Shown: one piece after another, positions 18,550 through 38,852 of the stretch
How positions within the stretch are numbered: position 1 is the first letter of the stretch
Layout of the letters: every line of letters begins with the position of its first letter
The notes under the pieces: generated by a model
Told to the model about the DNA's origin: nothing
What the model saw: the letters and a program-made list of their open reading frames with translations, nothing else
Databases searched by the model: none
Position numbers and translations under genes: made by a program
Assembly: GCF_003008615.1 (NCBI RefSeq)
Contig: NZ_CP027657.1
Coordinates: 3,782,001-3,846,000, forward strand
Direction: 5' to 3'
DNA length: 64,000 nt
Source of the DNA: Pseudomonas mendocina
GTDB taxonomy: Bacteria > Pseudomonadota > Gammaproteobacteria > Pseudomonadales > Pseudomonadaceae

Positions 18550-19827
18550 TCATGAGTTCCCTTGTTGCGGATCAGTGGTTAGCGGTGGGCGCAGCCCTAT
18601 GAGGATACCTACCGGCAGCCAGAAGATTACCCAGTAGTGGTTCGGACGCAGGAATATCGAGTGAACGTCCGTCAGCATCGCCATCATGGCTAGAATCAGC
18701 AGAGCCAGCCCTAGGCGGGCCAAAGGCTGCTGGCGCAGGCGCCAGCCTTTTTCTAGTAGGCATCCTAGAAAAAGGATGAACAGGGTGATGCCGGGCAGCC
18801 CAAGCTGATACCAGAGCTGGAGGTAGAGGCTGTGAGCATGTTTGACCGAGCCGCCCCAGGGATAGGTGAATTCGAATGGTGCTCCCGGTCCCGCACCCCA
18901 TAACCAGAAGTCCGGCAGACGTGCCAGCCAGCTCAACCAGATCAGGTCACGCCTGCTGGCGCCCCTGACCAGCCATTCGTTACGCACTTCTGGCCAGAAC
19001 ATGGCCAGCATGCCCAGGAGCAGAAAGGCGCCACTGATCAATAGCGTTCTGGAAATGCGTCCGGGAAATAGCAACAACAGGCACAGACCTGCCACCAGCG
19101 TGGAAATCCAGGCTCCCCGGGAAAATGTCAACAGGACATAGATGCACAGGCCTGCGATGCCGAGCAGTATCAGGGCTGATCGCCAGGCACGGGGAGGGGC
19201 TGCGACCAGGCGCTGGCTCAGGATAATTACGAAGAAACCATAGAAAAGGCCGGCAATTACCGGATACTTGAGATCGCCCAGGCCATACCAATCCAGAGTA
19301 TAGAGGCGGGCGTCTTCGCGAATCGTGGCATAGTCCAGTGGTATCGCCTTGATGCCGAACTGATGTATGACGGTCATCCAGGCGAACACCGCCGCTACCG
19401 TCGCGCTTAACGTAAGCACTGTAATCAGCGTTCGTGGGTGCGATGTCAGACGCCCGACTGCGTGAATGTAGAGCATCACGAACAGGGCGATCTTCAGCCA
19501 ATAGCCTGAGCTTTTGTCGCTGACCTCCGCTCGCCATAGGGCATTCAGTATCAGGCAAGCCAGTAGGCCTGCCAGGGCAAGAACCGCTGGCTGCTTCCAT
19601 AGCTGGAAGTTCGGGCGAATGAACAGCAATACCAGGCTGGGCAGTAGTAAAAACAGATGAACCTGGGTGGAGTAGCTGCTGCCGTCGGCGATCAGCAGTA
19701 TTCCCGCTATCTGTATGAAAAGCCCCAGGCTGAGCACTGCCAGCCAGCCTGGGGCAAGTACCCTGTGCCTGGTGTCGCTGGAAAACACTCGGCTGGTCAG
19801 CCTCCGTGCGCTATGGAACAATTCCAT
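18550..19827 (-). CDS. O-antigen ligase/polymerase-like membrane protein (Wzy_C family)
   Basis: A 425-residue protein with about ten to twelve membrane helices and a periplasmic loop containing GAGPGAPFEFTYPWGGSVKHAHSLYLQLWYQLGLPG, which matches the Wzy_C/WaaL signature (conserved H-x-x-x-L...G). The family joins or polymerises lipid-linked glycans on the periplasmic face. It is divergent from the lasso kinase gene across only 50 bases. A second protein of the same class lies at 34072-35388, so one may be the polymerase and the other a ligase that transfers the finished chain to an acceptor. Confidence 0.82.
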   Translation of the reverse strand: MELFHSARRLTSRVFSSDTRHRVLAPGWLAVLSLGLFIQIAGILLIADGSSYSTQVHLFLLLPSLVLLFIRPNFQLWKQPAVLALAGLLACLILNALWRAEVSDKSSGYWLKIALFVMLYIHAVGRLTSHPRTLITVLTLSATVAAVFAWMTVIHQFGIKAIPLDYATIREDARLYTLDWYGLGDLKYPVIAGLFYGFFVIILSQRLVAAPPRAWRSALILLGIAGLCIYVLLTFSRGAWISTLVAGLCLLLLFPGRISRTLLISGAFLLLGMLAMFWPEVRNEWLVRGASRRDLIWLSWLARLPDFWLWGAGPGAPFEFTYPWGGSVKHAHSLYLQLWYQLGLPGITLFILFLGCLLEKGWRLRQQPLARLGLALLILAMMAMLTDVHSIFLRPNHYWVIFWLPVGILIGLRPPLTTDPQQGNS

Positions 19828-19877: not shown

Positions 19878-20789
19878 ATGTCGCGCATTCTGCATAAAGC
19901 CTATGGCTTGTCCATCGGCACGGATTTGTCATTGCCCGAGCTATCGTCCATGTCTCCCGATGCAGTGGATTGCGTCGATGTCGAGATTCGCCAAATGACG
20001 CTGGATGCTCCCGAGCGTTATGGGGCGTTGCAGCAGATGGCGCCTTTTCTCTGGGCTTCCAGAACCTGCTTGTGGTTACAGGTGCCCGGCGTCGTCACCT
20101 TTCTGGTGCGAGAGGGGCGGCAGATCCTTTTTGATCCGGTTGCGGGAGTGGACGAGGACAGCATCCGTGTATTTCTCCTGGGATCGGCCATCGGCGCATT
20201 GCTGATGCAGCGGGGATTGCTCGTGTTGCATGGCAATGCAGTGCGCATCGGTGACCGTTGTTTGATATGCCTCGGCCATTCAGGGGCCGGCAAGTCCACC
20301 TTGGCAACGGCGTTTTCCCTGCGCGGGTACGAAATACTGGCTGACGATGTGGTGCCCGTTACGGCTGATGGATGGGTGCTGCCGGGCATTGCCCGAGCAA
20401 AGTTGTGGGCCGACAGCATCGCGCATCTGGGGATCGAGGCGGCAGGTCTGCAGCGGATAAGGCCCATGCTGGAGAAGTTCAGCTTGCCGCTGGAGCGTTC
20501 GCCGGCGCTGGAGCCGATTGCTCTGGGCGCTTTGTACATCCTCGATAAGCACAACCTGGCAAGCCCCACCATCCAGACGTTACAGGGTGTCCAGCGCTTC
20601 GAGAAACTCTGTGAGCACAATTATCGACCGCGTTTCATCGATGCGATGGGGCTGCAGGCTCAGCGCTTTTCGCTCTGCGCTGCGGTAGCCGGCAAGGTGA
20701 AGGTCAAGCAGCTCATGCGCAGCTCTTCAGCCTTCGATGTCGATAGCCTGGTCGACAGGATTCTCGCTGACATGGGCGTCGTTGCATGA
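19878..20789 (+). CDS. HprK-like kinase of the lasso peptide pathway
   Basis: A 303-residue protein whose C-terminal half is the HPr-kinase/phosphorylase fold: Walker A GHSGAGKST at residues 133-141, followed by GYEILADDVVPV with the acidic catalytic region. The N-terminal half is the variable domain seen in lasso kinases of the paeninodin (PadeK/ThcoK) type and in 'HprK-related kinase' proteins. I start it at ATG 19878 (MSRILHKAYGLSIG); no strong ribosome site is visible. It overlaps the sulfotransferase gene by 4 bases and heads a five-gene overlapping operon ending with the cyclase. All three precursors end in Ser, the residue phosphorylated in paeninodin, so C-terminal Ser phosphorylation is the expected reaction. 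Confidence 0.82.
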   Translation: MSRILHKAYGLSIGTDLSLPELSSMSPDAVDCVDVEIRQMTLDAPERYGALQQMAPFLWASRTCLWLQVPGVVTFLVREGRQILFDPVAGVDEDSIRVFLLGSAIGALLMQRGLLVLHGNAVRIGDRCLICLGHSGAGKSTLATAFSLRGYEILADDVVPVTADGWVLPGIARAKLWADSIAHLGIEAAGLQRIRPMLEKFSLPLERSPALEPIALGALYILDKHNLASPTIQTLQGVQRFEKLCEHNYRPRFIDAMGLQAQRFSLCAAVAGKVKVKQLMRSSSAFDVDSLVDRILADMGVVA

Positions 20790-21625
20790 GTGAGGGGATC
20801 TACTGGCTGGCGTCTTATCCCAAGAGCGGGAATACCTGGCTGCGTACCTTCATCAGCAATCTGTTGAGCGATGCCGATAAGCCCGTAGAGATCAACCATC
20901 TGATCGGCGATCATGCTGCTGATCGACATTGGCTGGATGACGTGTTGGGCCTTTCCAGTGCGGATCTCAGCGATGACGAGTTGCAGCAATTGCGGCCTGC
21001 CGTTTACCAGTGGGGCGAGAGGCTACCTCGCTACGTCAAGATCCATGATGCCTATGACTATTGCGCCGATGGTTCGCCGTTGATTGGTCGCTATGGCACG
21101 GTGGGCGCTGTATACCTGGTGCGCAACCCGCTGGATGTCGTGCCCTCGATGGCCAACCATTTTGGCTATGACCTCGAACGGGCTGTGGCCATCGCGCTCG
21201 ATAGCGAGTCTGTCCTCAACCGCAACCCAAAGTGTTACCGCCCTCAGACCCGCCAGTGGTTGTCGTGCTGGTCAGGGCATGCGCGCAGTTGGCTCGAGCA
21301 AACGGATGTGCCCGTCCATGTCATGCGTTATGAGGACATGCTCGATAAGCCCCTTCGGGCATTCACGGCTGCGGCCCGTTTCCTGAGCTTGCCCCATGAT
21401 CCGCAAACGGTCGCCAAGGCTCTGTGTTTCAGTGACTTCGAGGTGCTGGCCGAGCAGGAGCAGCGTGGAGGCTTTCAAGAGCGGTATTCCGATCGTCCCT
21501 TCTTCAACAAAGGCAAGAGCGGCTATGGGCGTTCCATGCTGAGCCCTCAGCAGATCCAGCGCATCCTGCAAGCTCATGCGCCGATGATGGAGCGTTTCGG
21601 TTATTTGGACAGTGGAGCTTTTTGA
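20786..21625 (+). CDS. PAPS-dependent sulfotransferase
   Basis: A 279-residue protein of the Sulfotransfer_1 fold. The 5'-phosphosulfate loop is YPKSGNTW (residues 11-18) and the 3'-phosphate site is YLVRNPLDVVPSMANHF. C-terminal FFNKGKSGYGR resembles the family's RKGxxGDW motif in a diverged form. It is translationally coupled to the kinase (ATGA) and, by TGATG, to the CobS-like gene. Candidate acceptors are Ser/Thr of the lasso peptide, its C-terminal phosphate or sugar, or the polysaccharide. I do not know a characterised sulfated lasso peptide, so the assignment of target is open. Confidence 0.82.
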   Translation: MSEGIYWLASYPKSGNTWLRTFISNLLSDADKPVEINHLIGDHAADRHWLDDVLGLSSADLSDDELQQLRPAVYQWGERLPRYVKIHDAYDYCADGSPLIGRYGTVGAVYLVRNPLDVVPSMANHFGYDLERAVAIALDSESVLNRNPKCYRPQTRQWLSCWSGHARSWLEQTDVPVHVMRYEDMLDKPLRAFTAAARFLSLPHDPQTVAKALCFSDFEVLAEQEQRGGFQERYSDRPFFNKGKSGYGRSMLSPQQIQRILQAHAPMMERFGYLDSGAF

Positions 21626-22575
21626 TGAGTAAGGCCGATAGCGAGTCTCCCGATACGCTATGTGACCCCCAGGCGACCTTCGGTTGCCAACTGCCTTGGG
21701 CGGTGCCTGCCTTCGCCCAGGCCAGTGATCATGTGCCGATGGCCGATCCTGCCTTCCAGTTCGATCCGCATGTCTGTCGCGCCATTCTTCTGGGCTTTGC
21801 CCATTCTCGCCGCGTCTATTTGTATGGGCCGCATGGCAGTGGCAAGTCGACGCACATCGAGCAGGTCGCTGCCCGGCTGAACTGGCCCTGCCTGCGCATC
21901 AACCTCGACGGCCATGTCAGCCGGGCCGACCTGATAGGTCGTGACATGCTGGTCGTGCGCGATGGGAAGCAGGTCACCGAGTTCGTACCAGGCCTGCTGG
22001 TCTGGGCCTTGCAGCGCCCCATGGCACTGGTGCTCGATGAGTACGATGCCGGTCGTCCCGAGGTGATGTTCGTCATCCAGCGCCTGTTGGAGGCCGATGG
22101 GCGGCTTACGCTGCTGGATCAGAATCAGGTCATCACACCACATCCGGCATTTCGTCTGTTCGCCACCGGCAACACGGCCGGCAGCGGTGATAGCGCCGGG
22201 CTCTATGCCGGTACGCAGGTGCTCAACCAGGCACAGCTCGACCGCTGGAACGTCATGCTGGAGTTGGGGTATCCAAGCAAGGAGCAGGAAGCCAGGATCA
22301 TCCAGGCGCGGCTGCCGACACTGACGCAGGAGCAGGTTCGGGGCATGCTCGAACTGGCCTGGCTCTGCCGTCAGGCGCATGAGCAGGGCGAGCTGTCTTC
22401 GTTGCTGTCATTGCGCACGCTGTTGGCCTGGGGCGAGAACCTGGTGCTGCTCGAAGACATGGCGCATGCGTTCTGTCTGTCGTTTCTCAACCGCTGTGAC
22501 GTTGCCGAACGGCCCCTGGTCGCCGAGCTTTATCAGCGCTGCTTCGCGCGTGAACTGCTTGACGTCGGACGATGA
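21625..22575 (+). CDS. CobS-like AAA+ (MoxR-clade) ATPase
   Basis: A 316-residue AAA+ ATPase: Walker A GPHGSGKST (residues 68-76), Walker B LVLDEYD (135-141), sensor 1 FRLFATGNT. The segments THIEQVAARLNWPCLRINLDG and DEYDAGRPEVMFVIQRLLEA are nearly the wording of cobaltochelatase subunit CobS. No CobN or other corrin gene is in the window. ATG 21625 overlaps the sulfotransferase stop by one base (TGATG). Together with the VWA protein that follows (4-base overlap) it forms a CobST/MoxR-VWA chaperone-like pair inside a lasso-peptide operon. Possible roles are ATP-driven remodelling of the cyclase or precursor, or metal insertion; the sequence does not decide. Confidence 0.85.
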   Translation: MSKADSESPDTLCDPQATFGCQLPWAVPAFAQASDHVPMADPAFQFDPHVCRAILLGFAHSRRVYLYGPHGSGKSTHIEQVAARLNWPCLRINLDGHVSRADLIGRDMLVVRDGKQVTEFVPGLLVWALQRPMALVLDEYDAGRPEVMFVIQRLLEADGRLTLLDQNQVITPHPAFRLFATGNTAGSGDSAGLYAGTQVLNQAQLDRWNVMLELGYPSKEQEARIIQARLPTLTQEQVRGMLELAWLCRQAHEQGELSSLLSLRTLLAWGENLVLLEDMAHAFCLSFLNRCDVAERPLVAELYQRCFARELLDVGR

Positions 22576-24131
22576 GCGGCGATTCTGAGCCCGGGGCACT
22601 GCAGGCCTGGCCGGCCATCTATGCCGGTACGCCTGGGGCATCCGTCGCTCATTCTGATCGAGCCCATAGTGATGCTGACGCTGCCTGGCAGCGCTGGCAT
22701 GACGCGCAGACCGACGCGCTGTTCTCCGTACTTGAACAGCCCTGGTACAGGGTGATCGAACAGGCTCGGGTGGAAACGCTGGCGAGCCGACATCTGCCCG
22801 GCATGGCCCACAACCTGGCATGTTTGCTGCCATTACCCACCGCCTTTTCGCCTGCCGCACATCTGTACCACTGCGCTCGTATTGCTCTGGCCGGTGGTGA
22901 GCTGCGCGATGAACAATGGCAGGTTCCCGATCAGACGGCTGGCCACTGGTTGGGGCGTCTGTTAGAGCGTGGCCGTCAGCGCCAGTTGCAGCAACTGAGT
23001 GCATACCTGTCGTTGTTGCTGTTGGAGGCGCGCTTGCAGTTGGCCGATGCCCAGGGTTTTGCTCGGGTGATCAAGCCTCTGGTAGAGGCCTATGTCCGGT
23101 CTTTTGCATCCACACAGCAATCACTTTCGTTGTCCATGGCTGCAGGTGTAACAGCCATGGGGCGGGAGGATCGCCTTTCACGTGCGGTTGAGCGTTCTGC
23201 CGCGAAGCAGGATGGGCCGTATCGGATATTTTCCCAGACTTGGGACGAGGTGCTGGGCATACGAGAGTTGAAGGCACTGGCGCAACAGCCGCATGCCTGC
23301 CTGAGCGACGAGGTTCAGGCACAGGCCAGACGCCTGGCCCAGCAGCTACGCAAGCGTCTGCAAAGCCTGCAGCGGCATCGCTGGAGCTTCGATCAGCCAC
23401 AAGGCATGCTCGATGCTCGCCGCCTGACATCGGTGGTGACCAGCGCCAACACTGCCATATTTCGCCAGCCGCAACAGGCGCCGCTTACCGATGCCAGCAT
23501 TTCCCTGTTACTCGATCTGTCCGGTTCGATGCGTGGTCTGCCGCAGCAGATGACCTTGTTGGCGGTCGATCTGGCGGTGCGCGCACTCGAAGCGGCCGGA
23601 GTCTCGTGCGAGGTGCTGGGTTACGGTACACGCTATGCCAGCCAGGAAAACCCGGTATTCGAGGCCTGGCAGGCCGCGGGCCAGCCCGCGTCTCCCGGAC
23701 GGCTCAATGCAACGCGTTACCTCGTCTACAAGAGCGTGCGGCAACCCTGGCGTGCCGGCCGTGGGTTATTGATGCGTCAGGCACCGCTCGCGGGGGAAAA
23801 CATCGATGGTGAGGCGTTGCTCTGGGCTGCCAGGCGCCTGCTCAAACAGCCGCAGCGGCGCAAGATTCTGCTGGTGTTCTGCGATGGCGCTCCACATGAC
23901 GAAGCGACGACCATCGCCAATGGCCCTGACTACCTGCGCAGGCACCTGCACCAGAGCATCGCCATGATCGAGCGTGGGCCGATCCATCTGGCGGCCATTG
24001 GCATGGGCCAGGGCATTGCGCATTACTATCGCCACAGTCTGAGGCTGCAAGGCCCCGAGACGATCTTTAGCGTATTGTTCGAGCAGTTGCCGCGACTACT
24101 CGATGACACGCATGGGGAGAGGTTTGCATGA
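22572..24131 (+). CDS. CobT-like von Willebrand factor A protein
   Basis: A 519-residue protein with a C-terminal VWA domain whose MIDAS is DLSGS (residues 315-319) and which continues to ILLVFCDGAPHDEATT, as in CobT. The long N-terminal part is helical and Gln/Leu-rich and matches the CobT/MoxR-partner layout. It overlaps the CobS-like gene by 4 bases and the cyclase gene by 4 bases, so the stoichiometry of all three products is probably linked. AAA+/VWA pairs act as metal chelatase motors (BchI/D, CobS/T) or protein-maturation chaperones (MoxR, RavA/ViaA, NorQ/NorD). Here the client may be the cyclase, the precursor or a modifying enzyme. Confidence 0.82.
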   Translation: MSGDSEPGALQAWPAIYAGTPGASVAHSDRAHSDADAAWQRWHDAQTDALFSVLEQPWYRVIEQARVETLASRHLPGMAHNLACLLPLPTAFSPAAHLYHCARIALAGGELRDEQWQVPDQTAGHWLGRLLERGRQRQLQQLSAYLSLLLLEARLQLADAQGFARVIKPLVEAYVRSFASTQQSLSLSMAAGVTAMGREDRLSRAVERSAAKQDGPYRIFSQTWDEVLGIRELKALAQQPHACLSDEVQAQARRLAQQLRKRLQSLQRHRWSFDQPQGMLDARRLTSVVTSANTAIFRQPQQAPLTDASISLLLDLSGSMRGLPQQMTLLAVDLAVRALEAAGVSCEVLGYGTRYASQENPVFEAWQAAGQPASPGRLNATRYLVYKSVRQPWRAGRGLLMRQAPLAGENIDGEALLWAARRLLKQPQRRKILLVFCDGAPHDEATTIANGPDYLRRHLHQSIAMIERGPIHLAAIGMGQGIAHYYRHSLRLQGPETIFSVLFEQLPRLLDDTHGERFA

Positions 24132-26056
24132 GCGCCATTGCCGGCATCGTTCGTTTTGACGGTCAAGCGCTGGAGCGCAATGTATTGCAGCGCATGAGCA
24201 GCATACTTGCGCCATACGGGCGTGATGCCCAGGACACCTGGCAGGGTTCTGGAGCCGGCCTGGTGCGTACCTTGCTGCGCACGACGCCGGAGGATCTGTA
24301 TGACCGCCAGCCCGTCGTTTCCGCTGATTGTCAGGTGGTGTTCGCTGGGCGCCTAGACAATCGTGACGAGTTGATCGCTCAGTTGGCGCTGGACGAGCGT
24401 CTGGCCAGTCAGATGGCCGACTCCGAGTTGATGGCCCAGGCTTGCCAGCGCTGGGACACCCTTGCTCTCGAGCGCGTCGAGGGTAGTTACGCCCTGGCCT
24501 GCTGGCAACCGCAGCGCAGGCGTCTGTGGCTTGCGCGTGATGTCATGGGCGGGCAGCCATTGTTCTGGCACCGGCAGTCCGGATTCCTGGCCTTTGCTTC
24601 CTGGCCCAAGGCGCTGTTCTGCGTACCTGGTGTCCCGCGCAATGTCGATGAGCAGAGCGTACTTGAACAGCTAGCACTGTTGCCCAGGGCGGGCTGTGCA
24701 TTCAAGGATATCCATCGAGTGAATCCAGGCGAGCTCATGCTGGTGGAGGGCGATAAGGTTTCCACGCATATCCATCGGCGCCTGGGCAGTGGCCCGCAGG
24801 TGCGCTTCAAGCGTGACGAGGAGTATGTCGAGGCGCTGCACGAGCATCTTCAGCGGGCAGTGTCGGCCTGTTTGCGCAGCAACGGGCCTGTGGCTTCCCA
24901 CCTCAGCTCTGGATTCGACAGCTCCACCGTGACGGCCTACGCCGCGCGCCAACTGGCACACAGGGGAGAGCGCCTGACCGCCTACACAGCAGCGCCCAGA
25001 GAAGGCTTCGCAGGGCCTGTGCCGCGTGATCGGCATGGTGACGAAAGCAAGGTAGCAGCCCAGTTGGCAGGGCGTTTCGACAATATCGATCATGTGATTC
25101 TGCGTTCCTCGGGTCAGTCGCCGCTGGAATCCCTGGCGCAGGAGATCGACGAACTGGATCAATCTCCGGTCAATCCTTGCAATACCCTATGGATGCGGGC
25201 CATCGAGCGAGATGCACAAGCGCGTGGTTGCAAGGTGATGCTTACCGGGCAGATGGGCAATATGTCCATTTCCTATAACGGCTATCCCTATATGGCTTCG
25301 CTCTGGCGCAAGGGCCGTTGGTTGCAATGGTGGCGTGAGCTGTGTGCCTATCAGCGTACGCATCCGCAATGGCGCAGGCGTGGCCTCGTTCTGCGTACGG
25401 TTGGTGCATCGATGCCTGGATGGTTGTGGCAACAGATTGCTATCAGGCGCGGGGAGTTTGGTGGGGAGCTGGATCAATATACGGCCGTAAACCTGCAGCA
25501 GTTGACCGCTGGATGGTTGCAGCAGCGCGCCGATGCCAAGGGCTGGGATCTCAGTTACCGACCCTGGCACGATGGCAGGGCCATGCGCCTGGCCGTGTTA
25601 GGTCGCATTGACACCGGCGCGGCGCTTGCCTCGGCGAACGTGCGCGGGCTGGAGATGCGCGACCCCACTTGTGACAGGCGGCTAGTGGAGTTTTGCCTGG
25701 GTGTGCCGGATTCGCAGTTTCTCCGCGACGGGCAGCCGCGCTGGCTGCTGCGTCGGCTGATGGCAGGCGTACTGCCAGGGGAGATACTTGAAGGACGCGG
25801 TAAGGGTTATCAATTCGCCGACTGGTATGAGGGGCTGAGTGCGGATCGTGAGCGCTTGCGCGAGCAATTGCTGCTGTTGCGTCAACATCGCCGGGCGGCA
25901 CAGTTGCTCGACCTGCCGGCTCTGGAGGCGTTGCTTGAAAACTGGCCCGAAGAGGGCTGGGGCAACATGGCGACCATTCAGCGCTATCGTCTGAAGCTGC
26001 TCCGGGGCGTCGCGATGGGCAACTTCATCCGCTATGCCGAGCCGGATAATCGCTGA
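24128..26056 (+). CDS. Lasso macrolactam synthetase (asparagine-synthetase-like cyclase, C protein)
   Basis: A 642-residue asparagine-synthetase homologue. The N-terminus reads MSAIAGIV: the glutaminase nucleophile Cys2 is replaced by Ser, so it should not use glutamine, as expected for a lasso cyclase. The ATP-pyrophosphatase loop is SSGFDSS (about residues 260-266), and GQMGNMSISYNG (about 373-385) resembles proteobacterial lasso cyclases. The reaction would be adenylation of the Asp8 side chain of the core and capture by the N-terminal amine to form the ring. It is last in the kinase-sulfotransferase-CobS-CobT operon and faces the three precursor genes, whose nearest stop is 98 bases away on the other strand. 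Confidence 0.88.
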   Translation: MSAIAGIVRFDGQALERNVLQRMSSILAPYGRDAQDTWQGSGAGLVRTLLRTTPEDLYDRQPVVSADCQVVFAGRLDNRDELIAQLALDERLASQMADSELMAQACQRWDTLALERVEGSYALACWQPQRRRLWLARDVMGGQPLFWHRQSGFLAFASWPKALFCVPGVPRNVDEQSVLEQLALLPRAGCAFKDIHRVNPGELMLVEGDKVSTHIHRRLGSGPQVRFKRDEEYVEALHEHLQRAVSACLRSNGPVASHLSSGFDSSTVTAYAARQLAHRGERLTAYTAAPREGFAGPVPRDRHGDESKVAAQLAGRFDNIDHVILRSSGQSPLESLAQEIDELDQSPVNPCNTLWMRAIERDAQARGCKVMLTGQMGNMSISYNGYPYMASLWRKGRWLQWWRELCAYQRTHPQWRRRGLVLRTVGASMPGWLWQQIAIRRGEFGGELDQYTAVNLQQLTAGWLQQRADAKGWDLSYRPWHDGRAMRLAVLGRIDTGAALASANVRGLEMRDPTCDRRLVEFCLGVPDSQFLRDGQPRWLLRRLMAGVLPGEILEGRGKGYQFADWYEGLSADRERLREQLLLLRQHRRAAQLLDLPALEALLENWPEEGWGNMATIQRYRLKLLRGVAMGNFIRYAEPDNR

Positions 26057-26153: not shown

Positions 26154-26315
26154 TCAGGACAAAAGACCTGCGTCAGTTGCGCCAGGACCACCAGCCTCGG
26201 TTTCGTCTAGATTCAGTCGAACAAGACATGGCGCCTGGTAGGGCTGGCGTTCGCGGGCGTCATTCTGCTCGTTTGGCGCGGCGGTGGTAATGCTTTCAAG
26301 GTCTTGGGGCTGCAT
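26154..26315 (-). CDS. Lasso peptide precursor A1
   Basis: A 53-residue precursor. The leader starts MQPQDLESITTAAP and holds Y26-Q-A-P29-C-L31, the Y-x-x-P-x-L motif bound by the PqqD-like B1 protein, at -15, -12 and -10 relative to the core. Thr39 stands at -2, as in lasso precursors. The core from residue 41 is AGGPGATDAGLLS: Ala1, Asp8 for an eight-residue ring, five-residue tail ending in Ser. ATG 26315 is preceded by TAGGAG. The stop is TGA at 26154-26156. The core resembles the start of paeninodin (AGPGTSTPDAF, from memory), another kinase-associated lasso peptide. It is the last of three tandem copies. Confidence 0.9.
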   Translation of the reverse strand: MQPQDLESITTAAPNEQNDARERQPYQAPCLVRLNLDETEAGGPGATDAGLLS

Positions 26316-26441
26316 GTCAAAAATCTCCTATCAGGTTGATAAACGAATACGGCTCAGCAGGTCACTTACTGATTGCGGGGATGCACAGGTACAGATACAA
26401 CGCTGACACCAGCCAGAGATTACAAAGGCTCTGCCAGAAAC

Positions 26442-26603
26442 TCAGGACTGATTACTGCCATCACTGATAAAACCAGTGGAGCCCAGTGTTTTTGAAAGTT
26501 CCATTCGCACCAGGCTGGGCGCCTGGTAGGGCTGGCGTTCGCAGGTGTCGATCTGCTCGTTTGGCTCGGCGGTGGTAACGCTTTCAAGGTCTTGTGTTTG
26601 CAT
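26442..26603 (-). CDS. Lasso peptide precursor A2 (divergent core)
   Basis: A 53-residue precursor with the leader conserved (MQTQDLESVTTAEP; Y26-Q-A-P29-S-L31; Thr39 at -2) but a different core from residue 41: GSTGFISDGSNQS. It still obeys the same rules, a small first residue (Gly1), Asp8, length 13 and C-terminal Ser, so selection keeps these four positions while the rest varies. Ribosome site ACGAGAG precedes ATG 26603. Same strand and spacing as its neighbours, 126 bases upstream of A1. The core lacks the AGxxG..TDAG pattern of A1 and A3, so the peptide may have a different target. Confidence 0.88.
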   Translation of the reverse strand: MQTQDLESVTTAEPNEQIDTCERQPYQAPSLVRMELSKTLGSTGFISDGSNQS

Positions 26604-26680
26604 GCTATGGCTCTCGTGGCGGGTGCTGATCAGCGATTATCTTCGGTGTGGTAGTGCCGGGTGAATAGCGCTAACAGGGG

Positions 26681-26842
26681 TCAGGAAAATATACCCGCGT
26701 CGGTTGAACCAGCTGAGCCAGCCTCGGTGTTCTTGAATTCAAGTCGGACAAGGCTGGGCGCCTGGTAGGGTTGGCGTTCGCGGGCGTCGATATGCTCGCT
26801 TGGCTCGGCGGCGGTAACGCTTTCAAGGTCTTTGGGTTGCAT
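26681..26842 (-). CDS. Lasso peptide precursor A3
   Basis: A 53-residue precursor from ATG 26842 (MQPKDLESVTAAEP); upstream extension of the frame to 26953 has no ribosome site and does not match the other copies, whereas CGGAG precedes 26842. Leader Y26-Q-A-P29-S-L31 and Thr39 at -2. Core from residue 41: AGSAGSTDAGIFS, with Ala1, Asp8 and C-terminal Ser13. It is the promoter-proximal copy of the tandem set, 77 bases ahead of A2. The tail AGIFS has only Phe as a bulky residue. Confidence 0.9.
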   Translation of the reverse strand: MQPKDLESVTAAEPSEHIDARERQPYQAPSLVRLEFKNTEAGSAGSTDAGIFS

Positions 26843-27166
26843 GTCGGGGCTCCGTGGTTGCAGATATCTGATCGTATCAGCGTTATCTGTTGGGCAAGCA
26901 CTTAGGATGCCGCGCAAAGTGCCTGCCGATGAGTTCTGATTGAACGTTGGCATAACTGGCTCGTTCTAGCACGATGATCGCTCGTCTGCCAGATGGCCGC
27001 TCAAAATCATGCCACCTGTTGCAGTCTGCCTCCAGCGACCGAATGCATAATGCGCTTCGCAGGCTTGAGTAGGGGGAGGGCATGCGGCATTCTTGGAGTC
27101 GCCTAGGACTGGCGGTGGATGGGATTTCGCTGGTGTATGGTCTCATTTCCCTGCCTGAGTCGCTTC
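26843..27166. promoter_or_regulatory. Divergent control region between precursors and wecB
   Basis: A 324-base gap that must carry the promoter for the three precursor genes (minus strand) and one for wecB (plus strand). A small inverted repeat GATATCTGATCGTATC lies near 26864-26879. No convincing -35/-10 pair is clear to me. The minus-strand open frame across 26883-27146 has no family resemblance and I leave it out. Confidence 0.4.
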
Positions 27167-28243
27167 ATGCACATCGCCTTTGTCCTGGGCACGCGCCCCG
27201 AAATCATCAAGCTGTCCTCCCTGATCAAGGCCTGCCAGGATCAACGGATCGACTACACCCTGATCCATACCAATCAGCATTATTCGTCCAATATGGATGC
27301 GTGCTTCTTCGAGGAGCTGGCGTTGCCGGCTGCCCATTTCAACTTGGGTGTCGGGGCCTGTCCTCCTGCCTCACAGGTCGGACGTATTCTGGTGGCTCTG
27401 GATCCGTTGCTCAACGACCTGAAACCTGATCATGTGGTGGTACAAGGCGATACCAACAGCGCTCTGGCCGGTGGGCTGGCCGCGAGCAAGGCGGGCTTCA
27501 GTGTGGCGCACGTCGAGGCAGGGTTGCGCAGTTTCGACCGTAGCATGCCTGAGGAAAACAACAGGGTGCTGCTCGACCACCTGGCCAGCCATTGGTTCTG
27601 CCCTGCCGAGCGGCAGGTTCAACTCCTGGCTCGGGAAGGTATCGCCGGAGCAGGTGTGCAGGTGACCGGCAATACGGGCGTGGATGCCACCTTGCTCTAT
27701 GCCGCACGGGCAATCACATACTCTCAAGTGCTCGAGCGGTTTGGGGTGCAGCCAGGCAATTACCTGTTGCTGACCTGTCATCGTCCCTCCAATACCGATG
27801 ATATGGCGCGTTTCGCCCAGCTCATGAGCAGTATTGAGTATCTCGCCAAGAGGCGTGGGCAGGTGGTCATATATCCCTACCACCCTCGCTTGTCAGATGC
27901 ACATCACGCAATACTCGCAGCCTTGCCTTCGATTATCTGCTGCGAGCCACTGGGCTATCTGGATACCTTGGCATTACTGCAGCAGTCATCCCTGCTACTC
28001 ACCGACAGTGGGGGGTTGCAGGAAGAGGCCTATGTGCTGGGTTTGCCTTGCCTGATCCTGCGTAACAATACCGAGCGTCCGGAAACCCTGGAAAACGGCG
28101 GAGCCTACCTGGTTCGGGATATCTCGCCAGAGACGCTTTGCCGACTGGCTGCCGAGTTGGAAGGGGCGAGCATTCACAGGGGCGGAGCCCTTGGCGATGG
28201 CCTTGCCTATCGCCATATTCTCGGTGCTTTGCTCGAATCCTGA
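27167..28243 (+). CDS. wecB: UDP-N-acetylglucosamine 2-epimerase (non-hydrolysing)
   Basis: A 358-residue GT-B-fold epimerase. MHIAFVLGTRPEIIKLSSLI is the family start, so I place the first codon at 27167. Further signatures are VVVQGDTNSALAG, HVEAGLRSFDRSMPEENNRVLLDHLA and LTDSGGLQEEAYVLGLP...LRNNTERPET. It converts UDP-GlcNAc to UDP-ManNAc in the cytoplasm. The WecG/TagA domain encoded next door uses ManNAc-type donors, so these two make a coherent pair. No UDP-ManNAc dehydrogenase (WecC) is in the window. The gene converges on the methyltransferase-WecG fusion with 11 bases between. Confidence 0.9.
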   Translation: MHIAFVLGTRPEIIKLSSLIKACQDQRIDYTLIHTNQHYSSNMDACFFEELALPAAHFNLGVGACPPASQVGRILVALDPLLNDLKPDHVVVQGDTNSALAGGLAASKAGFSVAHVEAGLRSFDRSMPEENNRVLLDHLASHWFCPAERQVQLLAREGIAGAGVQVTGNTGVDATLLYAARAITYSQVLERFGVQPGNYLLLTCHRPSNTDDMARFAQLMSSIEYLAKRRGQVVIYPYHPRLSDAHHAILAALPSIICCEPLGYLDTLALLQQSSLLLTDSGGLQEEAYVLGLPCLILRNNTERPETLENGGAYLVRDISPETLCRLAAELEGASIHRGGALGDGLAYRHILGALLES

Positions 28244-28254
28244 GGCTGTCAGGG

Positions 28255-29967
28255 TTAGCCGAAGAGGCGCTTGGCGAGCCAGGCCGGCAGCCATAGCATG
28301 ATCAGGCGGCTATTGCTGGTGACATAGCGTTTGAGCAGTCGCCTAGGCTCCTGGAGAAGGCGAAACACCCACTCGCAACCGGCCCGCTGCATCCACAGTG
28401 GAGCACGCCGCAGGCGCCCAGCCAGGACATCGAACGAGCCGCCAACCCCCATCAGAAAGGGAATATCGAGCCTGGCCTGGACGCGGCTCAGAAAGAGATC
28501 CTGATTAGGTGTAGGGAGTCCGACGATCAGGCAGTCAGCTCCGCTGTCGCGCAGTGTCTCGAAGAGCTGCGGCTCCTGTTCTGCGTTGAAATAGCCATGG
28601 TGCCAGCCCGCCAGTTGCAGCGTCGGGTAACTGTGTTGCAGCTTCCTCACGGTTTCCTCGATGACGTCGGGCGTTGCACCGAGCAAATAGGGGCGCAAGC
28701 CCTGGGTGGCACAGACTTGCAGCAACGCATGCATCGTATCGATGCCGGTTACCCGCTGCGGAACGGGGATACCCAGGCTGCGAGCCGCCCATACGACGCC
28801 CATGCCATCTGCGACGCAAAGCTCTGCACGAAACAGTGCCTGGCGCAGTTGGGCGTCCTCTTGCAGGTCGATCAGCTTGGCGGTGTTGACATCTGCCAGC
28901 CTCAGCGGCTGGCGTGTCTGCATGCTGTCCAGCGCGCGCTGGATGACCTGTTCCTGTGTCACCAGGCTGACGGGGGCACCGAGCACGATGGCTTGCGTCG
29001 GGGTCGAGAGCGCCTGATCCAGTGCCCTCTCGTGTCGCCAGCGGGAGAGCCTTCCAACCCTGTCTGCACCCAGTACGGATTGAAGGGCTTTCAGACGCAT
29101 GCGCCGGATTGGCGATACAGGCGTTCGCTGAGCGTCTCGGGCCTGTTGTAGAAAAGCTTCGCGCTGGGCAGGTGTCACAGGGGCAATGACCGAGCCTTCC
29201 GCCGCAGGGCGTGCCTCTTGATAAAGATTACCGGCCGTGCAGTTCGTGGGCGCGACGGGGTCCCAGCCTCCCAGGCGTATGACGCGCTGCAGGCCGTCTG
29301 CACTGAAATAGCAGGTGTGCGCTGGATGCACTGCCGTCCAGGTGGCACCCGGGATGAACGCATCGGGGACTTCGATGGCCAGGCGACTTTCGGGGGTACT
29401 GACGGCGGCAAGCTGCCTGAGCACACCCACAGGATCGACCAGATGTTCAAAGGTATGAAAGAGCGCGATCAGATCAAGCGTACCGACTTGATCGATCTGC
29501 TCGAGTTCGATGAAACGAACGGGGGCACCATCGAGCGCCAGGCTGCGTTCGGCATGACCTGGCTCGACCGCGAATAGCTGCAGGTCATCGCGTAAGGCAT
29601 GCATGCTGCCAAGGAAGGCGCCATGGCCGGAACCGATCTCCAGAACCCGGGCATTGCGGGGCAGTGATTGGGCCAGTCGCCTGGCTCTGTGCAACGCCAG
29701 CTCTCGGCTGCGCATCTGCAACAGCAGGCGTTCGTCCGGCGTGTCGCTGGCCATGAAGGGGAACAGCTGGCGATAGTGTTCCCGGTAGAAATGATCCAGA
29801 GTCGTGGCCGGCAGATCCGGGCACAGGTAGGCTGAGGCGCAATGGCCACAGCAGTAGAGCGTCTGGCCGCTATCGAGCAATTGCTCTCGGTCGATAGCGT
29901 GCTGATCTTCTGTCATTCCGCAGAATCGGCAGATGGCGGCTCCATAATTCGGTCGCATCAGGCTCAT
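28255..29967 (-). CDS. Methyltransferase - WecG/TagA glycosyltransferase fusion
   Basis: A 570-residue two-domain protein. Residues about 1-290 start with a small Cys-rich zinc-finger-like segment (CRFCG...CCGHC) and a class I SAM methyltransferase (VLEIGSGHGAFLGSM; LIALFHTFEHLVDP). Residues about 325-570 are a WecG/TagA/CpsF glycosyltransferase (LADVNTAKLIDL; CVADGMGVVWAARSLG; RVTGIDTMHALL; LIVGLPTPNQDLF; FLMGVGGSFDVLAGRLRRAP; GCEWVFRLLQEPRRLLKRY). The latter family transfers ManNAc or ManNAcA to lipid-linked GlcNAc. It overlaps the epimerase gene by 4 bases. The fusion suggests that the sugar is methylated as or after it is added. Confidence 0.88.
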   Translation of the reverse strand: MSLMRPNYGAAICRFCGMTEDQHAIDREQLLDSGQTLYCCGHCASAYLCPDLPATTLDHFYREHYRQLFPFMASDTPDERLLLQMRSRELALHRARRLAQSLPRNARVLEIGSGHGAFLGSMHALRDDLQLFAVEPGHAERSLALDGAPVRFIELEQIDQVGTLDLIALFHTFEHLVDPVGVLRQLAAVSTPESRLAIEVPDAFIPGATWTAVHPAHTCYFSADGLQRVIRLGGWDPVAPTNCTAGNLYQEARPAAEGSVIAPVTPAQREAFLQQARDAQRTPVSPIRRMRLKALQSVLGADRVGRLSRWRHERALDQALSTPTQAIVLGAPVSLVTQEQVIQRALDSMQTRQPLRLADVNTAKLIDLQEDAQLRQALFRAELCVADGMGVVWAARSLGIPVPQRVTGIDTMHALLQVCATQGLRPYLLGATPDVIEETVRKLQHSYPTLQLAGWHHGYFNAEQEPQLFETLRDSGADCLIVGLPTPNQDLFLSRVQARLDIPFLMGVGGSFDVLAGRLRRAPLWMQRAGCEWVFRLLQEPRRLLKRYVTSNSRLIMLWLPAWLAKRLFG

Positions 29968-30956
29968 GCGTTGGCCTTATGCTTCTGCCACTCTGTCACG
30001 ATCTCCTGAAGGCTGTCATCGAGCGGTGTCGCTGCATGCCAGCCTGTGGTCTCGGTGGTCTTTTCCGGAGCCCCCCACTGGCTAGGACGGTCGACCTTGC
30101 GGCGCAGGGCTGGATCGCTGTGAATCTCTACCGTCAGGCCCAGGCATCGAGCCAGGCCATTCACGATATCGGTAATTGCCGTTTCGCGACCGCTGCACAG
30201 ATTGTAGGCACTGGCTCGTTGCTCGGGCCAGGGCGCATGGTTGGCCAGTGCGGCCAGGCCGGTGGCGAGATCCTTGACATCGACGAAGTCGCGACGAGTA
30301 TGCAGGTTGCCCATTGCCAGGCGTATATGCGAACCCGCTGGTGCACCTTCCATCCGCCTCAAGACCTCAGGGATCAGATGGCCGTTGGGGTCGCCCCAGC
30401 CGATGGCATTGAACAGTCGGGCAATGATGCCGCTGGCTGCAGTGCGCTCGGCCCACAATGCTAGTTGGTGTTCGTTGCTCAGCTTGGTCGCTGCATAGAC
30501 ATCGCAGGGGTGTAGCTGCATGTCTTCGCTAAGGGGCTGATCCGCGACGGCGTAAACCGCGCCGCTGGAGGCCAGCAGGACGCGTTTGCAGCCCTGCTTT
30601 GCACAGGCATCGAGAACAGTCTGTAGGCCCAGGACATTGACCTCCACAGCCAGCCTGGGATCGGCTTCACAGCTGGGGATGTGATGCAGCGCCGCCAGGT
30701 GGATCAGCGTATCCGGCTCGAACTCGCGCAATGCCTGCTGGACACGCTCCGGGTCACGTATGTCGCCAAGGAAAGTGGTGAGGCCAGGGCGAGCCTCAGG
30801 CATGGGAAGACCGACGGACAAATTGTCGAAAACGGCGACATGCGCCTCTGGTAGCAATACTTCCAGCAGGCGACGACCAATGAATCCGGCTCCACCTGTG
30901 ATGAAAACCCGTCTTTTATTCCCCGATGCTGCGAATGGTGAAGACAACTTCCGCAC
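29964..30956 (-). CDS. NAD-dependent sugar epimerase/dehydratase (extended SDR)
   Basis: A 330-residue extended short-chain dehydrogenase. NAD-binding VFITGGAGFIGRRLLEVL, catalytic YAATK (in CDVYAATKLSNEH), and ASSGAVYAVADQPLSE are as in UDP-glucose 4-epimerase-like enzymes. It acts on a nucleotide sugar in the cytoplasm; the exact epimerisation or dehydration cannot be told. It is followed, with a 4-base overlap, by the methyltransferase-WecG fusion, and is divergent from the amidotransferase gene across 188 bases. It probably supplies a second sugar for the repeat unit. Confidence 0.87.
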   Translation of the reverse strand: MRKLSSPFAASGNKRRVFITGGAGFIGRRLLEVLLPEAHVAVFDNLSVGLPMPEARPGLTTFLGDIRDPERVQQALREFEPDTLIHLAALHHIPSCEADPRLAVEVNVLGLQTVLDACAKQGCKRVLLASSGAVYAVADQPLSEDMQLHPCDVYAATKLSNEHQLALWAERTAASGIIARLFNAIGWGDPNGHLIPEVLRRMEGAPAGSHIRLAMGNLHTRRDFVDVKDLATGLAALANHAPWPEQRASAYNLCSGRETAITDIVNGLARCLGLTVEIHSDPALRRKVDRPSQWGAPEKTTETTGWHAATPLDDSLQEIVTEWQKHKANA

Positions 30957-31144
30957 TCCCTGGCTGGCAAATCAGGCACCGAGTTCAGTGCCATTGATGG
31001 TGCCGCCTATTGTAGGGAGGTTTTGGCAGAACAACAGGTGGGTAGGCGCAGAATCCGATGGTGATTGTTGTTAGGATGCTGCGTTGATTTCTGGGGCTTA
31101 TGTCACTCGTCCAGCGTGATGCTCGGATTGTATGGAGGCTGTCT

Positions 31145-33001
31145 ATGTGTGGTCTGGTGGTTCTGGCACGTTGGCCAGAGCAGGCGAGTAGGCTGGCAAT
31201 GCGAGCTGCGTTGGATTGTCTGGCGCATCGCGGGCCGGACGCTGAAGGCATGCATGCGGCCTGGGGTGGTCGGTTGCTGCTGGGGCATCGGCGTCTTGCG
31301 ATTCTCGATACCAATACGGCGGCTTCCCAGCCCATGATTGACCCGCTGACGGCAACCGCGCTGGTCTTCAATGGCGCGATCTACAACTATCGAGAGTTGC
31401 GCGCTGAGTTGCAGGCACTGGGCGCCGTTTTCAGCACCGGCTCCGATACGGAGGTCATTCTGTTGGCCTGGCGTCATTGGGGCACGGCGTGCTTCCAGCG
31501 CTTCAATGGCATGTGGGCGCTGGCGATACACGACGGGCCTTCCGGTAAGCTGTATCTGAGTCGTGATCGGCTTGGGGTCAAACCACTGTATTGCCGGCGA
31601 TCGGCGGATTGCCTGGCGGTGGCCAGCGAACTCAAGGCTGTGCTGGCGGCCAGCCAGGCGCCGCTAAGGGTCGATCCCGCCGCGGCATTGGACTACCTGA
31701 GCCTGGGCTTGCTCGATCATCGCCCTTCCAGTTTTCTGCAGGACATCATTGAGGTACCACCCGGGGCGCTCTGGTGCGTCACGCCGGATGGCTTCATCGA
31801 GCAACGACGTTTTCATGACTGGCCCGAGGTCGATCCAGACTTGCAATGCGAGACGGTCGCCAAGGCGCTGCCCGAGCTTCTCGTGGATGCCGTCGGTTTG
31901 CGTCTGCGCTCCGATGTCGCGCTTGCCGCGCAGCTTTCCGGTGGTATGGATTCGGGTAGCGTGGCTTGGGCCATCGGTCAGCAACGCCAGGCGCTGGAGC
32001 ACTTTCAGGGCTTTTTTTCCTATGGCTACGATGGCGAGATAGGCCAGGAACACGACGAAACGGCGGCAGCCTTGCGCACCCTGGAACATGTCGCGCCTGG
32101 GTTGCCGTATCACCGTGTAGCGGCTGCCGCCTGTCCGCAACTGGCGGAGCTTGAACAACTGATCGCGGTGCAGGAGTTGCCAGTGGCGACGCCAAGCATT
32201 CTGGCGGGGTGGCGCCTGTTCCGAGCTATCTCGGCAACCGGGGCGAAAGTGGTGCTGACGGGGGATGGCAGTGATGAGCTGTTTGCCGGCTATACCCGGC
32301 GCTATCTGCCGTTGGCACTGCGTCGAGCGCTCGGGCGATTGGACTTTGCACAGGCGGGTGCACTTCTGGCGAGTGATGAGCTGTCATACGGCATTGCACT
32401 GCGCCGCTTGGTCTGGAGTCTGCCCGCCTCGGCCTTGTATGGCCTGTTCCGCCGGCAGCCGCATATGCGCGTGCTCCGTGAGGGCTTCCTGAATGCTCAG
32501 CGAGAGGCATTGCAGGGCGTGATCGCTCTGCAGCGCCAGGAACTCGATGTGCAGGGTGTCGATGATGTGAGGCGGGTGCTGTTGCCGCAGATTCTGCGCT
32601 ATGGCGACCGCAATGCCATGGCCTGGGGCATCGAGTCACGGTCACCATTCCTGGACTACCGTATCGCCGAGCTGGCCATGCGCCTGCCTGCATCACGCAA
32701 GGTTGGACCTGCGGGTGGAAAGCTGCCGCTGCGCATGGCGATGACTGGCCGTCTGCCGGATGCCGTGGTGCGTGGGCACAAGAATCGCGGGTTGGGCAAT
32801 GCCGAGCAGTACCAGGTTGGCCATATGAATCTGACCGAACTGCTCGAGGCACCTCCGCAGGCCGCAGCAGATTTCATCGACATCGCGCAGCTACGCGAAC
32901 AGCTACGTCGCCAGCCAGGCAACCCCAGATTGTGGTGGCCGGTCTGTTTCCTGCTTTGGCTGCGTTGGCTGGAGACCGGGCCGGGTCGACTAGCGTGCTG
33001 A
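31145..33001 (+). CDS. Asparagine-synthase-type glutamine amidotransferase (Cys2 present)
   Basis: A 618-residue AsnB-like protein starting MCGLVVLARWP at 31145, where GGAGG lies just upstream; Cys2 is the glutaminase nucleophile. It has HRGPDAEG and the ATP loop SGGMDSG (residues 265-271), plus TGDGSDELFAGY, all as in true glutamine-dependent enzymes. This contrasts with the cyclase at 24128-26056, which lacks Cys2. Such amidotransferases in O-antigen and exopolysaccharide loci (WbpS-like) amidate sugar acids. I assign it to the glycan, but a second lasso cyclase cannot be excluded. Its last 12 bases overlap the convergent glycosyltransferase gene. Confidence 0.85.
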   Translation: MCGLVVLARWPEQASRLAMRAALDCLAHRGPDAEGMHAAWGGRLLLGHRRLAILDTNTAASQPMIDPLTATALVFNGAIYNYRELRAELQALGAVFSTGSDTEVILLAWRHWGTACFQRFNGMWALAIHDGPSGKLYLSRDRLGVKPLYCRRSADCLAVASELKAVLAASQAPLRVDPAAALDYLSLGLLDHRPSSFLQDIIEVPPGALWCVTPDGFIEQRRFHDWPEVDPDLQCETVAKALPELLVDAVGLRLRSDVALAAQLSGGMDSGSVAWAIGQQRQALEHFQGFFSYGYDGEIGQEHDETAAALRTLEHVAPGLPYHRVAAAACPQLAELEQLIAVQELPVATPSILAGWRLFRAISATGAKVVLTGDGSDELFAGYTRRYLPLALRRALGRLDFAQAGALLASDELSYGIALRRLVWSLPASALYGLFRRQPHMRVLREGFLNAQREALQGVIALQRQELDVQGVDDVRRVLLPQILRYGDRNAMAWGIESRSPFLDYRIAELAMRLPASRKVGPAGGKLPLRMAMTGRLPDAVVRGHKNRGLGNAEQYQVGHMNLTELLEAPPQAAADFIDIAQLREQLRRQPGNPRLWWPVCFLLWLRWLETGPGRLAC

Positions 33002-34063
33002 CACGTTTTCGTAGAGGGCTTTTACGCGTTGACGAATACCTTCCCAGGTGAAGGTATTCATCGTGCGTCGATGATGTTCGTCGCTGATCCTGCCTCGAGA
33101 CTGCTGCACGATGCATTGCACGAGTCGGCTGACATCCGCGAGTGGGTAGAGAGCATCCTCCAGGCCGACTTGGGTGAGGATCGCCCGGTTGCCTGGAATG
33201 TCGCTGGCGACCACCGGGCAACGGTGCAACAGCATTTCGATGATTACTGTCGGCATGCCTTCCATTTCCGACGGGAGCAGGAATGCATCGGCTGCAGCCG
33301 ACATCCCGGCGACATCGTTGTCGCTGACGAAGCCGTGGAACTGTACCCGTTCACTCAGTCCCTGGCTGGCGGCCAGATGTTCCAGGCGTGCACGGTCAGG
33401 GCCGGTGCCGACCAGATGCAGCACTGCCTGCTCGAGTCCAGGTTGGCTAAGCGCTGCAATGGCGTCTTCGAGGCGTTTGACGCAGTCGAGTCGTCCTACC
33501 GACAGCAAGGCCGGCGAGCCCTTGAGTTCTGTGCCCATGACGTTCTGAGGCAGGTTCTTCAGCAGCACACAGTTGGGGATGAACACAGGGCGTGTGACGC
33601 GCAGGTTCCGGGTCTGCAGATAGTCCAGCCAGAATTCAGCCAGTAACACGGTGGCATCAGCCCGCTTCAGGAGCCAGCGTTCGGCCAGTTGATCCCATAG
33701 CCACTTGGCCGCGCGTTTAACGGTGCTGCTGTCGTGATCGTAGTAACAATGCGGTGTGTAGACGACTTTCTTGTTCAGGCGATGGGCCATGTACGCCGCA
33801 CGTAGACTGACTGGTGTGCGTGAGCCATGGACATGCACGATATCCGCCCAGCGAACATCGGCTAGCAGGTTGGCCTTGCTCGCATGATGAACCTCATAGC
33901 GGCCGGCTCCTGCGTCAGGGTCTACAGCCTGAGCGATCACACGTATCGAATGCCCCTCTTGCAATGCCAGATCGGCCAGGCCGGCGATGTGGCGCGAAAC
34001 GCCACCACCGCCAGTATGAGGTTGGAAGTTCTTGTAGACGTGCAGGATGCGTGCAGGAGTCAT
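32990..34063 (-). CDS. Glycosyltransferase family 4 (GT-B)
   Basis: A 357-residue GT4 enzyme. N-terminal ILHVYKNFQPHTGGGGVSRHI is the acceptor-side loop, ALLSVGRLDCVKRLEDAI opens the donor domain, and AFLLPSEMEGMPTVIIEML holds the E-x7-E donor-binding motif. It is the last gene of the long minus-strand operon that begins with the PqqD-like gene. It should add one sugar to a lipid-linked repeat unit, or to a modified peptide; the sugar cannot be told. It starts 8 bases after the O-antigen polymerase stop. Confidence 0.88.
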   Translation of the reverse strand: MTPARILHVYKNFQPHTGGGGVSRHIAGLADLALQEGHSIRVIAQAVDPDAGAGRYEVHHASKANLLADVRWADIVHVHGSRTPVSLRAAYMAHRLNKKVVYTPHCYYDHDSSTVKRAAKWLWDQLAERWLLKRADATVLLAEFWLDYLQTRNLRVTRPVFIPNCVLLKNLPQNVMGTELKGSPALLSVGRLDCVKRLEDAIAALSQPGLEQAVLHLVGTGPDRARLEHLAASQGLSERVQFHGFVSDNDVAGMSAAADAFLLPSEMEGMPTVIIEMLLHRCPVVASDIPGNRAILTQVGLEDALYPLADVSRLVQCIVQQSRGRISDEHHRRTMNTFTWEGIRQRVKALYENVSAR

Positions 34064-34071
34064 GTCGAGAC

Positions 34072-38732: not shown

Positions 38733-38852
38733 CCGTGTACTCCCGGTGTGTATGAAGGTAGGCGCTGGGTCATGTTGGATTGACGACGGCTCTGTAGGGC
38801 TCTGTAACCCCTTGTTTGGTTGTAGCCTGAAGCGCATGCCTTGCGCTGGTGA

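Follow-up and report, generated by a model that had tools for sequence, protein, structure and literature searches.

The window analyzed here, a 64,000-nucleotide stretch of Pseudomonas mendocina DNA, contains three 53-codon genes on the minus strand, A1 (26154..26315), A2 (26442..26603) and A3 (26681..26842), with cores AGGPGATDAGLLS, GSTGFISDGSNQS and AGSAGSTDAGIFS, respectively. An earlier note had placed them at exactly these positions, with the leaders and cores that we find. As it also claimed, Y26, P29, L31, T39 (core position -2), a core of 13 residues, Asp8 and a C-terminal Ser are present in 3/3. The note described A1 and A2 as not visible as long ORFs; however, all three show as ORFs, and the description reflects small size alone. 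A3 sits inside a 90-aa ORF with an upstream ATG. A GGAG ribosome-binding site was found 5' of A1 and A3, and GAGAG only in front of A2. No promoter or terminator signals stood clearly above shuffles.

On the plus strand (19.9-26.1 kb), five genes overlap end to end in the order K-ST-CobS-CobT-C, through ATGA, TGATG, ATGA and ATGA, and A1-A3 come after C on the opposite strand, in convergent orientation. K (19878..20789, +) encodes an HPr-kinase-like, putative precursor kinase of 303 aa from the ATG at 19878, a GTG start at 19806 also being possible. Scored in its 327-aa form, it reached 25 bits against PF07475 (cut-off 33.3); the H, GxxGxGKS and DD motifs are present. ST (20786..21625, +), a sulfotransferase (PF00685, 57.5 bits), is joined to K by ATGA. 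It is followed by a CobS-like AAA+ ATPase (21622..22575, +; ATG 21625 is the likelier start), which has a CobS_N domain and both Walker A and Walker B motifs, and by a CobT-like VWA protein (22572..24131, +) of 519 aa with a DxSxS MIDAS. C (24128..26056, +), a putative lasso cyclase of the asparagine-synthetase fold without Cys2, overlaps the CobT-like gene by ATGA. Its best model was NF033535 (lasso cyclase) at 313 bits, below the cut-off of 525, and in the cyclase tree C is separate from the asnB2 group.

The remaining genes, B1, B2, D and NTF, lie 13-17 kb beyond this left half, behind a polysaccharide locus. B1 (43552..43833, -) is a PqqD-like RRE (PF05402, 54.4 bits versus 23.4) and scored 75.1 bits against the lasso RRE model, just below its cut-off of 80. 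B2 (43064..43540, -), a transglutaminase-like leader peptidase (NF033537, 72.6 bits versus a cut-off of 33), is the sole PF13471 match in the genome at E <= 0.001. D (41304..43067, -) is an ABC exporter, and NTF (40117..41364, -) is a PF14907 nucleotidyltransferase (NTP_transf_5), which adjoins the precursors in P. alcaligenes RU38D. In RU38D, one stretch of ~11 kb holds K-ST-CobS-CobT-C, two convergent precursors and NTF-ABC-B2-B1, with enzyme genes 67-96% identical to those of the window; the counterparts of A1 and A2 have cores AGGPGITDAGFLS and GSTGPISDGITTS. This contiguous cluster indicates that both window halves belong together and are split by the polysaccharide locus. A cluster without B1 and B2 was rejected, since both were found 13-17 kb away and RU38D has all genes together. 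The actual anatomy is larger than the earlier note described, and ST and the CobS/CobT-like pair were absent from its reasoning.

The same genome has a second lasso-like cluster (L019, 3262000-3275000) with C, ST, kinase and RRE genes and a precursor candidate at 4794-4973 (+) with core AGSTNTNDGVGGSS. No B2 was found in L019, and as the sole PF13471 match lies in the window, B2 may be shared in trans. Three tandem tail-collar-type ORFs lie beside lasso-like clusters at L019 (2834-4503) and at the Azospirillum plasmid loci L079 and L081; this assignment is based on PF07484 for one ORF and on 'tail fiber protein' in the plasmid annotation.

The polysaccharide locus between the two halves

The 13.3 kb gap between A3 and NTF carries polysaccharide genes (27119..40043, a locus without assigned strand): wecB, a methyltransferase-wecG, an epimerase, a second asnB, a GT4, a Wzy-like gene, a flippase-like gene with a domain of unknown family, TylF and a Wzz-like gene. 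Note that the Wzy, flippase and Wzz labels are guesses, those three ORFs having no family match above cut-off. An O-antigen ligase-like Wzy_C gene (18550..19827, -) recurs near the polysaccharide locus in several of the genomes that carry the marker described below.

As marker for the locus we used the C-terminal domain (35385-36626, -, ~410 aa) of the 867-aa flippase-like ORF, for which no Pfam match above cut-off was obtained. The domain is fused to the flippase-like half in the window, whereas the ORFs that contain it in the other 10 genomes with the marker measure 423-454 aa. Within the genus, its presence follows that of lasso clusters. In a larger draw, which contains the first six marker genomes, the marker was found in 11/383 genomes. 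Nine of these 11 have a lasso-type cluster within ~25 kb of it (G000, the window genome; G013, G051, G054, G061, G139, G1078, G1050 and G940), four of them with the CobS/CobT pair (G000, G013, G054 and G940).

These data bear on whether the association reflects function or merely a gene-rich hotspot that lasso and polysaccharide genes share without any functional tie. The hotspot is a serious contender, to which we give somewhat less than even weight. It is favored by RU38D, whose contiguous cluster has no such polysaccharide genes around it in 21.5 kb, and by G375 and G1121, which carry the marker with no lasso cluster near it in the ~60 kb fetched. In contrast, all five genus genomes with C (E <= 1e-70) fall among the 6/149 with the marker (hypergeometric 1e-8, a value that ignores kinship), and 9/11 marker genomes of the larger draw have lasso genes in the stretch fetched, in differing placement and orientation. 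The accessible part of a 2026 paper (PMC13381572) reports that paeninodins and LPPs often co-localize with capsular polysaccharide loci in Bacilli, where the role of this arrangement is unknown. Given this published association, the linkage in Pseudomonas is an extension and not a first.

Linkage of the CobS/CobT-like pair with the putative lasso cyclase

The CobS-like and CobT-like proteins are homologous to cobaltochelatase subunits over nearly their whole length (PDB 9ujv, 9uka) but fall below the TIGR01650/TIGR01651 equivalog cut-offs. The AlphaFold model of the CobT-like protein (mean pLDDT 78, pTM 0.55) had NorQ-NorD entries as its five best fold matches, with low whole-model TM values of 0.30-0.36. 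The genome has one CobT match at E <= 1e-30. Its single CobN, at G000:2252864, lies 1.5 Mb from the pair and is followed by a ChlI-type AAA gene; no CobN neighbors the pair. A B12 chelatase role of the pair was rejected for this genome, CobN being distant and beside the ChlI-type gene.

The linkage of the pair with C is recurrent. The two genes adjoin C in seven genomes that were read directly: the window genome, RU38D (L020), G013 (L017), G054 (L018), G203 and G312 (L062/L063) and G940. Around ordinary CobT loci, C was found within 1.5 kb in 2/40 cases (L022 and L024, from G203 and G312), the 40 loci coming from order- and class-wide CobT searches that mostly matched ordinary CobT. No C was present around further CobT matches in five larger stretches (L064-L068). 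In four of these (L065-L068), the fetched DNA has CobS/CobT-like pairs but no lasso cyclase; these pairs may belong to an ordinary chelatase or act in some other way.

As an indirect proxy for shared contigs, we compared the longest-contig sizes of 120 of 377 CobT-like matches with those of 120 of 355 C homologues. Among these listed matches, 35/118 distinct CobT-like values equaled that of a C homologue, compared to 0.45 on average, and never more than 4, across 1000 jitter controls. The hosts of C homologues, again among the matches listed and for C only, include Pseudomonas, Halomonas, Litchfieldella, Pigmentiphaga and Desulfobacter.

In the cyclase tree, one clade (support 99/96) contains 24/26 rows labeled as CobST-linked, together with 4 unlabeled rows; eight of the labels were read directly and 18 were assigned via a shared longest-contig size (18 of 36 such C rows used). 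The G203 and G312 cyclases are outside this main clade. With 24/26 cyclases in one clade and these two apart, lasso-linked CobST may have a single origin or more than one. A fully supported branch of the CobT tree separates 40 lasso-linked proteins, together with 13 further CobT-related ones, from the rest. CobT-related proteins of Halomonas fall within the lasso-linked group, and CobT of G203 and G312 groups with ordinary CobT, on a long branch whose position may be wrong. When plasmids were searched with one of the Halomonas CobT-related proteins, 10 records were returned, all partial.

Both components are sparsely distributed. In the genus sample, C (E <= 1e-70) was found in 5/149 genomes and a CobT-like protein (E <= 1e-30) in 8/149, three of the latter aligning over most of the length. 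An order-wide search for C at E <= 1e-90 returned the window genome only, at a threshold that also hides G203 and G312; in the family of G203, its C was present in 2/6 genomes. The pair is absent from lasso-type clusters that do have K, ST and C in G061, G139, G051, G1050 and G1078 and at the second locus of the window genome. At plasmid C loci, the pair was present at 0/4 places opened (5 records have C homologues; the Priestia record was left out). The existence of clusters without the pair indicates that this chemistry does not generally depend on it and that the pair is a clade-specific addition.

Could the pair work for some other metal chelatase or metalloenzyme, its place in the operon being mere hitch-hiking? 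Its near full-length homology to CobS and CobT points in this direction, as do the several lasso-type clusters that lack it and the insertion of metals by such AAA+/VWA pairs, exemplified by NorQD in the accessible part of PMC13036017. Arguing against it, the reading frames of the CobT-like gene and C overlap, adjacency of the pair to C recurs in two families and among shared contigs, and CobN is elsewhere, beside a ChlI-type AAA. We consider such hitch-hiking rather unlikely. From position and family, remodeling of C or of the C-precursor complex is the most likely role of the pair.

The recurrent CobS/CobT-like pair beside a lasso cyclase appears to be the new part of these clusters. Among the top-ranked papers listed from the open-access literature, with subscription journals mostly outside this search, no title linked lasso peptides with CobS/CobT, MoxR or VWA proteins. 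In the portions available of the papers examined that contain both lasso and AAA+/VWA-type terms, the two occur in unrelated places.

Precursor families and proposed pathway

Precursor-like ORFs adjoin C in convergent orientation in five other genomes (RU38D, G013, G054, G203 and G312). The earlier note had named a lack of homologous precursors next to the B/C genes of relatives as a result that would speak against its proposal; such precursors were found there. A scan of L017, L018 and L020 by leader motif only returned 16 small ORFs, of which 8/16 were set aside as overlapping other genes or antisense. The 8 kept (four in L017, two each in L018 and L020) occupy intergenic stretches after C and, given Thr at -2, 8/8 have Asp at core position 8. 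L017 combines, in a single cluster, two C genes and four precursors that differ in core type. In G203 and G312, which belong to another family of the order, a conserved small ORF convergent with C has WxxPxL in place of YxxPxL. It was chosen by place and motif from 22 conserved small-ORF pairs, and the register in L062 uses the second of two Thr residues.

A wider pattern, applied to 18 stretches, fixed aromatic-xxP in the leader, T/I/V/S at -2 and Asp/Glu at core position 8 but left the last residue free. It gave 23 rows, and the C-terminal residue was Ser in 19/19 (the register of L106 being doubtful) after four rows were set aside: three inside other genes, ending in P, L and V, and one Azospirillum row ending in G. 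Note that some of these rows are close orthologues and that L076, L077 and L113 are near-copies. L080, L081, L098, L114 and L120 gave zero precursor candidates. The arrangement varies: precursors are convergent with C in the window, RU38D, G013, G054, G203, G312 and the second locus of the window genome, upstream on the same strand in G061, G139 and G1050, beside B2 in G940, and upstream of a kinase gene in G1078. The small residue 1 claimed earlier applies to the three window cores but not to relatives, whose cores can begin with F, I, N or Q; as core residue 1 varies, a small residue is not a general feature.

With A1 as protein query, 6/7 candidates matched at E <= 0.01. Four are of 53 aa with first-type cores, P0009 differs in its core but retains Asp8 and the C-terminal Ser, and P0010 has 44 aa with a different end. 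The best match, P0005, may stand for the window's own cluster. Together with the similar precursors in related lasso clusters, these matches indicate that A1-A3 are more than chance ORFs. Among the three copies, leader dS was 0.36-0.48 and dN 0.17-0.19 (dN/dS ~0.4-0.5), lending modest support to A1-A3 as coding sequences. Between the cores of A1 and A3, dS was 0.82 and dN 0.27; core comparisons involving A2 are near saturation. A2 and its RU38D counterpart showed the opposite trend in the leader (dS 0.12, dN 0.21). On these grounds, A1-A3 are very probably lasso precursors. Their sequences fit products in which the ring comprises 8 residues and the C-terminal Ser is modified, in line with the earlier proposal; among the maturation genes, B2 passes its curated cut-off, with C and B1 below theirs.

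The products might instead be modified unthreaded or linear peptides, like the LPPs of Bacillota, rather than threaded lassos. LPP clusters also contain an RRE, an HPrK-like kinase, an NTP transferase and an MsbA-like exporter (accessible part of PMC13381572), and a 13-residue core would leave a tail of only 5 residues, with few bulky side chains to hold the thread. However, LPPs use a signal-peptidase-like protease, and the window has a lasso B2 above cut-off and a C-type cyclase; moreover, precursors picked out solely by their leader motif again have Asp8. We regard unthreaded products as improbable. The window genes scanned for families included no signal-peptidase-like LppS. That A1-A3 are decaying duplicates of which one at most is used is very unlikely: the weak ribosome-binding site of A2 and the short P0010 would suit decay, but both core types persist in RU38D, the leader motif, T39, D48 and S53 are kept in all three copies, and leader dS exceeds dN.

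Taken together, we think it likely that A1-A3 give rise to C-terminally modified 13-residue lassos and that the CobS/CobT-like pair remodels the cyclase-precursor complex. This reading starts from gene content, gene order, related precursors and the CobST-C linkage, as observed, and from these proposes the enzymatic steps, the site of modification and the client of the remodeler. The roles of B1, B2 and C follow established lasso biochemistry. B1 would bind the YxxPxL leader through its RRE, B2 would cut after residue 40, and C would join the N-terminus of residue 1 to Asp8, so that 8 residues form the ring and 5 the tail. The kinase is predicted to modify the C-terminal Ser or another hydroxyl, on which NTF and ST probably also act, and D would export the product. 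The CobS/CobT-like pair, encoded directly before C, would be a dedicated ATP-driven remodeler of the cyclase-precursor complex and not a B12 chelatase.

Published precedents bear on the modification. In the accessible text of PMC8498205, the C-terminal Ser of linear precursors is where HPrK-like kinases place their phosphate, and in pseudomycoidin an NTP transferase adds hexoses to the C-terminal Ser phosphate. The kinase of the bsf cluster targets Ser3 instead (PMC10368454, accessible part), so the C-terminal Ser is a likely but not a certain site here. ST could sulfate a peptide hydroxyl or the nearby polysaccharide. For MoxR-type AAA+ proteins with VWA partners, client remodeling by a twisting force has been proposed, with the MIDAS metal suggested to contact the client (PMC13036017, accessible part). 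In a more speculative version, which we hold to be doubtful, the cyclase of this clade would not fold the lasso by itself. A dedicated CobS-type AAA+ ring with its CobT-type VWA adaptor would spend ATP on pre-folding the precursor inside the cyclase or on threading it there, perhaps through a grip of the MIDAS metal on Asp8 or on the modified C-terminal Ser, and the finished, C-terminally charged lasso would act with the neighboring surface polysaccharide.

To our knowledge, how a linear lasso precursor is held in a pre-folded shape before ring closure is unresolved. A cyclase clade with its own AAA+/VWA pair would make this question testable by adding or removing two genes. The findings also add C-terminal-Ser lasso clusters in Gram-negative bacteria and extend the association of lasso and polysaccharide loci from Bacilli to Pseudomonas.

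Comparison with known systems

The kinase-type lasso clusters of paeninodin, pseudomycoidin, Sphingobium yanoikuyae and Bradymonas (bsf) have A, B1, B2, D and an HPrK-like kinase in common with the window, as well as C, in the window a putative lasso cyclase. Some also contain an NTP transferase and, in some Firmicutes, a putative sulfotransferase, as in the window (accessible part of PMC8498205). The Bradymonas bsf cluster has a YxxPxL leader and a Gly1-Asp8 ring like the window, and the H/GxxGxGKS/DD motif of its kinase matches K (both from the accessible part of PMC10368454). In contrast to the kinase-type clusters, the cluster in the window has the added CobS/CobT-like pair, its three precursors point toward C, and a polysaccharide locus divides it in two. 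The accessible text of PMC8498205 and PMC10368454 makes no mention of an AAA+/VWA pair, and 'AAA' and 'chelatase' occur 0 times in that of PMC8498205. Paeninodin and LPP clusters in Bacilli likewise have phosphopeptide-type RiPP genes beside polysaccharide loci (accessible part of PMC13381572), whereas the window is from Pseudomonas, with a partly different gene set in an interleaved arrangement.

Cobaltochelatase CobNST has CobS and CobT subunits to which the window pair is homologous along nearly its whole length. Unlike CobNST, however, the window pair has no adjoining CobN, and its operon partner is a lasso cyclase. At 519 aa the window CobT-like protein compares with mostly 573-674 aa (one of 529 aa) in the ungrouped rows of the CobT tree, where it belongs to a separate, well supported group. 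The MoxR-VWA system NorQ/NorD has the architecture of an AAA+ protein plus a VWA/MIDAS partner in common with the window pair. The client of NorQ/NorD is nitric oxide reductase, whereas that of the window pair would be a peptide cyclase.
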